Part shown: positions 8,563 through 10,027 of the stretch, piece after piece
Layout of the letters: the number at the start of each line of letters is the position of its first letter
Numbering within the stretch: position 1 is the first letter of the stretch
DNA from: Clostridia bacterium
GTDB taxonomy: Bacteria; Bacillota; Clostridia; RGIG7378
Assembly: GCA_017501105.1 (NCBI GenBank)
Contig: JAFVXO010000023.1
Coordinates: 1 to 42,279, forward strand
Direction: 5' to 3'
Length of the DNA stretch: 42,279 bases
The notes under the pieces: model-generated
What the model was told of the DNA's origin: nothing
The model's input: only the letters and a program-made list of their open reading frames with translations
Database searches by the model: none
Position numbers and translations under genes: made by a program

Positions 8563-8617
8563 GAATTAGTGAACCGATGCGCTGACAGGGAAGCTCTACC
8601 AATTCTGGCTATTTTCC

Positions 8618-8646
8618 TTGCCTATTCGTTACGAATAGGGCATAAT
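8618..8646 (+). promoter_or_regulatory. Promoter of the AbrB/HipA-like module
   Basis: TTGCCT (8618-8623), 17-bp spacer, CATAAT (8641-8646), divergent from the metG promoter. The spacer is almost entirely filled by a palindrome, annotated separately, so a bound repressor would directly exclude RNA polymerase. Confidence 0.65.
8621..8639. promoter_or_regulatory. Palindromic operator within the promoter spacer
   Basis: CCTATTCG (8621-8628) and CGAATAGG (8632-8639) are perfect 8-bp inverted repeats around TTA. The site lies between the -35 and -10 boxes, the classic place for an autorepressor; the AbrB-domain protein encoded just downstream is the natural candidate. Confidence 0.65.
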
Positions 8647-8663
8647 ATTTTCAGGAGGTGCAT

Positions 8664-9221
8664 ATGGAACAACGCATGGCAAACATTACTGTGAATCAGG
8701 CTGGCGGCACTGCCTCTGCTGGATCTGTCTCATACAAATTATCCCTGCCCACCAGTTGGATTAATCAGCTAGGCCTATCCCCGGATAACCGCCAGGTTCT
8801 CCTTTCCTTTGATGGAACTAGCATTACTATTACCTGTTCTCCCACTTTTGACCAGTTTTTAGACAGGGCGTGTGACTCAGGCCATGACCTTGTTCTCCTC
8901 TACTATTATAAGAACGATACTCTCTGCTCGCGAATTATTGCAGACTACACTAACCAATCTGTCTTTGTAGAAAATCTGGTATCTCACTACCTGTTCACTG
9001 CGTTCGGCAACAACATTTCTCCTTCCTGGGCAGACTATCTTTCCTTTTTGGATAGCCGCTGCATACCTGCATCCAGAGATGGCATTCGTGAGTATTTAGA
9101 TTTTCTGGGAATAGGCGAGTACGATGCTCTGGAAATTATTCGAGAGACAAAGGGCCGCATGGCAGAAGACCAACATTGGCTGGAAATCCAAGAATTCCGC
9201 GGAGGTAAGCCATGTCAATAA
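8664..9221 (+). CDS. AbrB-domain protein, putative antitoxin of a HipA-like kinase
   Basis: The 185-residue protein begins with an AbrB/SpoVT/MazE-type swapped-hairpin DNA-binding domain (about 7-58: QAGGTASAGSVSYKLSLPTSW, then LGLSPDNRQVLLSFDGTSITI). A second domain (about 62-175) contains LLYYYKNDTLCSRIIADYT and a conserved-looking tail with SRCIPASRDGIREYL and TKGRMAEDQHWLEI; from memory this tail recurs in Firmicute proteins encoded next to HipA-like kinases, but I know no described function. The ATG at 8664 follows AGGAGG by 5 nt; a GTG at 8658 lies inside that site. It overlaps the kinase gene by 10 nt, so they are translationally coupled. Likely role (inferred): DNA-binding autorepressor and partner or neutraliser of the kinase. 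Confidence 0.7.
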   Translation: MEQRMANITVNQAGGTASAGSVSYKLSLPTSWINQLGLSPDNRQVLLSFDGTSITITCSPTFDQFLDRACDSGHDLVLLYYYKNDTLCSRIIADYTNQSVFVENLVSHYLFTAFGNNISPSWADYLSFLDSRCIPASRDGIREYLDFLGIGEYDALEIIRETKGRMAEDQHWLEIQEFRGGKPCQ

Positions 9222-10027
9222 CCCTCATCTCTAACGAAAAAATTGCAGAGACCTCCTCCAGGGGCAACCAGGAAAAGTGGTTGGACAACGGCAAATGGTA
9301 CAAGGTAGACCAATTTGGATATGAGGCATTGGCAGAGGTTTTTACAAGCCTACTCTTAGAACACAGCAACATCGAGAAGGATACTCCCTTTACATTTGTC
9401 AGGTACAACATGGAACAGGTCGTGGTCCACGGTCGCCAGAGGACTGCCTGCAGTAGCCCTAATTTTCTGCCGCAAAACACATCTATTATCACCATCAGCC
9501 AGTTGTTCAAGCAACATCTTGGCAGTTCCTTGTCCAGCAAACTAACCAGCCTCTCCAGCGACAAACAGAGGATGCTCTATTTAGCAGAGGCCACAGCAGA
9601 TATCACGGGACTAAACTTATTTCCCCAATACCTTACCCTGCTTTTCGAAGTGGATAGCCTGGTTGTAAACGACGATCGCCACCTAAACAATATTGCTGTA
9701 CTGGCCCACGATACAAGCTTTGACTATTGCCCCATCTTCGACCAGGGGGCTGCTTTGCTTTCTAATACAAGATATTGCCCTATGGAAATAGAACCACGCT
9801 CCCTTATCAACAGCCAGATAGCAAGGCCTTTTAATACAACCTTCAATCGGCAAGTCATTACAATGAGGACCCAGTTTGGCAAGCAGCTCTGTTTGCCAAC
9901 TTTTACCAAAAAGTATTTGCAGGAATTGGTGGAGCCTCTCCTTGCCTACTATCCTGCCAGAGACAGGTCCTACATTATGGATAGGGTGGTAGCTACTATC
10001 TGCCTAAGACAGCCTCATTTGCATTAA
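9212..10027 (+). CDS. HipA-like serine/threonine kinase, putative toxin
   Basis: The 271-residue protein keeps the catalytic core of HipA-type kinases: an N-terminal loop SSRGNQEKW (15-23), WYKVD with a candidate ATP-binding lysine (K31), the catalytic loop NDDRHLNNI (153-161; D155, N160) and the metal-binding aspartate in PIFDQG (D177). It lacks the HipA N-subdomain 1 and is much shorter than the roughly 440 residues of E. coli HipA, resembling HipT of HipBST or CtkA. The paired serines at 15-16 could be autophosphorylation sites. GGAGG lies 6 nt before the ATG. HipA-family toxins commonly phosphorylate aminoacyl-tRNA synthetases; the target here is unknown. No terminator separates it from spmA. 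Confidence 0.75.
   Translation: MSITLISNEKIAETSSRGNQEKWLDNGKWYKVDQFGYEALAEVFTSLLLEHSNIEKDTPFTFVRYNMEQVVVHGRQRTACSSPNFLPQNTSIITISQLFKQHLGSSLSSKLTSLSSDKQRMLYLAEATADITGLNLFPQYLTLLFEVDSLVVNDDRHLNNIAVLAHDTSFDYCPIFDQGAALLSNTRYCPMEIEPRSLINSQIARPFNTTFNRQVITMRTQFGKQLCLPTFTKKYLQELVEPLLAYYPARDRSYIMDRVVATICLRQPHLH

Follow-up and report, generated by a model that had tools for sequence, protein, structure and literature searches.

A pair of overlapping genes in a Clostridia bacterium genome raises the question of whether a short Hip-type kinase can be controlled by a single partner protein that both binds DNA and inhibits the kinase. The genes lie on the forward strand of a 42,279-nucleotide stretch of contig JAFVXO010000023.1 (the whole stretch is called the window below) and encode a candidate antitoxin and repressor of 185 amino acids (the partner, 8664–9221) and a short Hip-type Ser/Thr kinase of 271 amino acids as candidate toxin (9212–10027), with an overlap of 10 nt that a preliminary description of the locus had already reported. 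The reading we consider probable is a two-gene, type II-like Hip kinase toxin–antitoxin module in which the functions of HipB and HipS are fused in one protein. Judged from sequence, the module looks like a real, previously undescribed toxin–antitoxin variant with the kinase as its putative toxin. In organization it is a type II cassette: two adjacent, overlapping and co-conserved genes that are present or absent at a fixed site.

The partner gene most likely starts at the ATG at 8664, which follows a ribosome-binding site, AGGAGG (8653–8658). An alternative GTG at 8658 was ruled out because it overlaps this site, and the start at 8618 given in the preliminary description falls on the −35 element of the promoter instead. 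For the kinase gene, a GGAGG at 9201–9205 lies within the 3′ end of the partner gene, an arrangement that fits translational coupling of the two genes. A single copy of the kinase is present in the source genome (1.49 Mb, 126 contigs), and a search of this genome with the Pfam HipA_C model gave no significant match.

By its motifs and predicted fold, the kinase is a member of the Hip kinase superfamily (HipA_C), with a Gly-rich loop, catalytic Asp and Asn and a metal-binding Asp. The three motifs previously proposed were all found: the Gly-rich loop SSRGNQEKW (9254–9280), the catalytic loop NDDRHLNN (9668–9691) and the metal-binding FDQG (9737–9748). Conservation is strict, with S15, S16, G18, N19, Q20, K22, W23 and K31 as well as N153, D155, R156, H157, N160, D177 and G179 identical in 37/37 relatives. 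The invariant S15 and S16 correspond to the region of HipA Ser150 and HipT Ser57–Ser59 and, by analogy with HipA and HipT, may be autophosphorylation sites. N-subdomain 1 is missing, as had been suggested, since the Gly-rich loop already occupies residues 15–23 and the structural model aligns with HipT and CtkA. When the two window proteins were searched alone, NCBIfam gave no match and Pfam almost none; HipA_C reached an E-value of 0.025 for the kinase (14.7 bits, cut-off 30.5) and matched 34 of 37 kinase homologues. A profile of the kinase family searched against the PDB retrieved CtkA (3e-4) and HipT of Legionella (0.14). The AlphaFold2 model (mean pLDDT 89.6, pTM 0.89) has a Hip-type fold, matching CtkA (1.3e-6), Legionella HipT (2.2e-4), HipA of Shewanella (2.6e-4) and HipT of Escherichia coli (3.5e-3) in Foldseek. 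In three kinase pairs dN was ~0.04–0.15 against a dS of ~0.4–1.9, and the kinase gene is therefore under purifying selection. The same holds for the partner in two pairs (dN 0.14 versus dS 2.1, and dN 0.036 versus dS 0.28), dS being saturated in the third.

The partner (model mean pLDDT 86.1) consists of two domains. Residues 1–58 (8664–8837) form a predicted AbrB/MazE-like DNA-binding head, in line with the preliminary description. The Pfam model MazE_antitoxin (PF04014) matches 21/25 close partner homologues (best 5.1e-5), although it does not match the window protein itself and in the single homologue scored in full it stays below the curated cut-off (19.6 versus 24.7 bits). AbrB entries (9a4b, 1yfb and 2k1n) appear among the Foldseek matches of the partner with weak E-values. 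In two loci of the AbrB-type clade the head seems to be absent or damaged (L028, 1714–2166; L010, 4627–5001).

Residues 76–179 (8889–9200) form a second domain in which three strands are followed by three helices and one more strand. HipS is reported to have a similar order, with four strands, three helices and a fifth strand (PMC10627512). The best Foldseek match of the partner was HipA of Shewanella (4pu4, E 0.16, prob 0.75), and a chain of the HipBST complex, 7ab3_E, was also found (both at E 0.16–2); this chain is presumably HipS, since 7ab3 has two Couple_hipA-protein chains of similar length. In profile–profile comparisons the tail scored 97.6% against partners of kinase-first operons, 96.7% against the N-terminal domain of fused kinases and 93.4% against a group of three proteins (L084–L086) that exceed the Pfam cut-off of Couple_hipA (PF13657) and match the tail profile. 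One of the three, L086, is encoded directly downstream of a kinase found with the window kinase profile (L053) and is extended by another C-terminal region, matching the described arrangement of HipN. Compared directly with classical HipS alone, the tail profile gave 0.17%, and the connection succeeded only through these HipN-type intermediates. Through them, the tail appears to be homologous to HipS and to N-subdomain 1 of HipA (Couple_hipA), which agrees with the earlier proposal that the C-terminal domain is the counterpart of HipS. HipS inserts Trp65 beside the Gly-rich loop of the kinase, and some true HipS proteins also do without this residue (PMC10627512). Trp65 is not conserved in the partner, which instead has an invariant Arg138 (41/41) in a P135-x-x-R138 loop (9066–9077); judging by the position of the motif rather than by superposition, this loop probably corresponds to the Trp65 loop.

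Relatives and their neighborhoods were surveyed next. A search through 84,980 species genomes yielded 35 loci and, together with others, 43 close-family kinases for the tree. The pair is conserved, closely spaced or overlapping, in ~40 Firmicutes loci with differing flanking genes; the partner lies directly upstream of the kinase in nearly all close-family loci, and any other flanking gene is common to at most five. A full-length kinase was found in nine of 391 genomes of the class, all nine of which have the partner. Only one strong partner match in these genomes (G294, locus L054) lacks an intact kinase, and it adjoins a broken kinase gene. This locus (1276–2299) encodes what reads as a resolvase-like HTH followed by an intact HipS-like tail, with the kinase gene cut to its first ~45 residues, and is a candidate antitoxin without a toxin. 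Partner fragments with stops were seen in four further places (G145, G317, G194 and contig C11 of G061) and a kinase fragment in G306, which suggests frequent gain and decay of the module.

While the kinase and HipS-like tail are constant in the close family, the head is not. Partners in Oscillospirales have the AbrB-like head, whereas those in Lachnospiraceae and in a few Bacillales and Acholeplasmatales metagenome-assembled genomes have an XRE-type HTH at the same position (HTH_3 or MqsA in 8/8; nearest solved structures HigA-2 and MqsA). The replacement of an HTH by an AbrB head, as the preliminary description had envisaged, thus has a natural counterpart in a sister clade with the same HipS-like domain and kinase. 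A tree of the short tail domain that included remote outgroups gave no resolution and the kinase tree was used instead; in it, AbrB-type and HTH-type kinases form two clades with 100/100 support, so one head exchange is enough to explain both. Chromosomal members come mostly from gut and rumen Oscillospirales and Lachnospiraceae.

The promoter changes together with the head. In the window, a −35 element TTGCCT (8618–8623) and a −10 element CATAAT (8641–8646) are separated by a 17-bp spacer, which is filled by a putative operator, the palindrome CCTATTCGT-T-ACGAATAGG (8621–8639). A layout of TTGA, 17 bp and TATAAT with a palindrome in the spacer recurs upstream of relatives. Counted over the same loci from which the motifs were derived, some of them near-copies and hence not independent trials, ATTCG-N3-CGAAT lies upstream of the partner in 21/27 AbrB-type loci (0.03 expected from shuffles) and TTGG-N3-CCAA in the remaining 6/27, all of one clade, with neither motif in any of the 12 HTH-type loci; CATYAAAATRATG (at most one mismatch) is found in 10/12 HTH-type loci (0.03 expected) and 0/27 AbrB-type loci (0.13 expected). 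Two loci added subsequently from a different collection (L105 and L106, the latter close to Oscillibacter members) carry the expected motif. This match between palindrome and head type, seen in natural sequences, points to probable autoregulation by the domain that was exchanged. The 15-bp operator form TATTCGNNNCGAATA occurs exactly once in the whole source genome, and the partner therefore looks like a dedicated autoregulator.

Outside the close family, the HipS-like domain is found in other arrangements. In some remote relatives it lies downstream of the kinase (L062, L065, L070 and, by length, L071), either alone or with HTH_17 and with a recognizable DUF2442 in two; in others it is fused to the kinase N-terminus, which is the HipA layout (L004–L006, L061 and L067), or follows HTH_7 and precedes the kinase (L052). 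The partners in the kinase-first operons, which combine the HipS-like domain with DUF2442, the excisionase-like HTH_17 or both, suggest what the PADLOC family PDC-M03B may be. Bacillales plasmids encode the kinase first and then a stand-alone HipS-like protein, while on a Streptococcus salivarius plasmid a weakly matched HipS-like gene lies upstream of the kinase; all of these plasmid-borne kinases are annotated as 'hypothetical protein'. In five loci (L017, 7312–8358; L025, L029, L031 and L033), the AbrB-type pair has a second Hip kinase, fused to a HipS-like domain, at a distance of a few kb, and L067 has two fused kinases in tandem. A viral origin was also considered. A scan of IMG/VR found no relatives; four short, unverified fecal scaffolds labeled 'Bacteriophage sp.' carry the kinase, with the pair in the two that were checked, and these unannotated scaffolds are no proof about phages.

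The genomic site provides a further comparison. The genus has one other sampled member, a sister species, in which metG (91% identical) and spmA (74%) adjoin each other without the module, and the gap between them holds an array of TAGTGARCCG...CGCT repeats with periods of 84 and 122 bp (L099, 620–975; contig 28 of G001). The window has a single copy of this repeat at 8567–8583, just upstream of the module. Absence of the module from the metG–spmA site of the sister species fits the gain or loss of a cassette.

According to the proposed mechanism, the partner would unite two jobs that are split between two proteins in HipBST. Its AbrB-like head would dimerize and bind the palindrome between the −35 and −10 elements, repressing the operon, and its HipS-like tail would dock on the kinase N-lobe beside the Gly-rich loop and hold the kinase inactive, with the Arg138 loop sitting where HipS presents Trp65. 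If the partner were lost or displaced, the freed kinase would phosphorylate a cellular target and growth would stop. A more specific proposal, which we put somewhat short of an even chance, is that these loci represent an unnamed, distinct Firmicutes family of Hip kinases, with a one-polypeptide antitoxin made of a HipS-like inhibitor and an exchangeable DNA-binding head (AbrB, XRE HTH or resolvase-like HTH, with DUF2442 and HTH_17 in remote kin), operators that switched together with the head, inhibition through an Arg loop in place of a Trp loop, and a target that is not one of the known synthetases.

The same biochemistry could serve a different biological role, namely abortive infection, in which phage infection would be the trigger, with the partner as its sensor, and the infected cell would be shut down by the kinase. 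This reading competes over role and not over mechanism, and we regard it as possible, if rather doubtful. Against PDC-M03A, a PADLOC candidate defense family, the kinase scores 2.9e-8, while PDC-M03B gives a weak match to the partner (0.016) and weakly shares its HipS-like domain; a HipA-like kinase with a DUF3037 protein (PDC-M66) is described as a stand-alone phage defense system (PMC12548924), and the relatives of the window pair are patchily distributed, some on plasmids. However, PDC status itself denotes a candidate only, and the presumed members of PDC-M03 differ from the window pair in being kinase-first operons with other DNA-binding domains, some with DUF2442 and HTH_17 tails. A literature search for PDC-M03 gave no result.

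The partner could also be a transcription factor that is phosphorylated by, or recruits, a non-toxic signaling kinase and controls other genes besides its operon. Its two-domain build with a likely DNA-binding head would suit that role, and the HipS-like domain could provide a platform for docking instead of inhibiting, but no regulon is visible, given the single occurrence of the operator in the genome. Presence or absence at a fixed site, the lack of conserved neighbors and the decayed kinase gene next to an intact partner gene (L054) all fit a toxin–antitoxin cassette better, and we think the signaling explanation improbable. As for the target, methionyl-tRNA synthetase is encoded next door, and Hip kinases often target aminoacyl-tRNA synthetases such as GltX, TrpS and LysS (PMC8262856), which is why the preliminary description took metG as a clue. 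Yet the neighborhood survey found metG beside the pair in no relative, and the sister species has metG next to spmA without the module. The adjacency is not conserved and says nothing about the target, and we give methionyl-tRNA synthetase very little credence in that role.

The favored fused-antitoxin module resembles several known systems in part. HipBST of E. coli O127 and Legionella likewise has a short kinase without N-subdomain 1, a Gly-rich-loop Ser, a HipS-like inhibitor encoded upstream and a DNA-binding component, but it has three genes with separate hipS and hipB, whereas the window pair joins the HipS-like domain and an AbrB-like DNA-binding domain in one protein, and it presents Trp65 where the partner probably has Arg138. 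In HipBA, the kinase includes N-subdomain 1 and the partner is an HTH-type HipB, unlike the 271-residue window kinase and its AbrB-like partner; HTH heads occur only in the sister clade. HipIN, HipJS and HipL share short kinases with HipS-like antitoxins, and HipN further combines the HipS-like domain with a second domain of DNA-binding type; there, however, the antitoxin is encoded downstream of the kinase and HIRAN stands in place of an AbrB-like domain (PMC8262856). HipRF and HipRG pair a Hip kinase with a two-domain, HTH-containing putative antitoxin (PMC8262856), as the HTH-type sister clade does. Compared by description, this clade may overlap HipRG, although those antitoxins are described as Stl-like whereas the HTH-type partners match HTH only, in addition to the HipS-like tail. 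CtkA of Helicobacter pylori, the nearest solved kinase by both sequence and fold, is 12% identical. AbrB/MazE-type antitoxins, with a similar head and presumed role as operon repressor, were paired with PIN, MazF, Fic/Doc and RelE toxins in an earlier survey, and HipA with Xre (Makarova et al. 2009; PMC2701414). Among the antitoxin domains in the ten Hip gene organizations of Gerdes et al. (2021) are HTH, HipS, HIRAN, Stl-like and resolvase-like types, and that paper never uses the word AbrB (PMC8262856); nor was an AbrB–Hip kinase pair found in a search of openly accessible journal papers.

These comparisons of natural sequences show that a Hip kinase antitoxin can be divided into an inhibitor module and a DNA-binding module. 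One kind of kinase and HipS-like tail is combined with at least two unrelated DNA-binding folds, with a corresponding difference in the promoter operator, such that the division of labor in HipBST between repression and inhibition becomes testable by domain swaps. At the same time, a family whose plasmid-borne kinases are all annotated as 'hypothetical protein' gains a hypothesis for its function.
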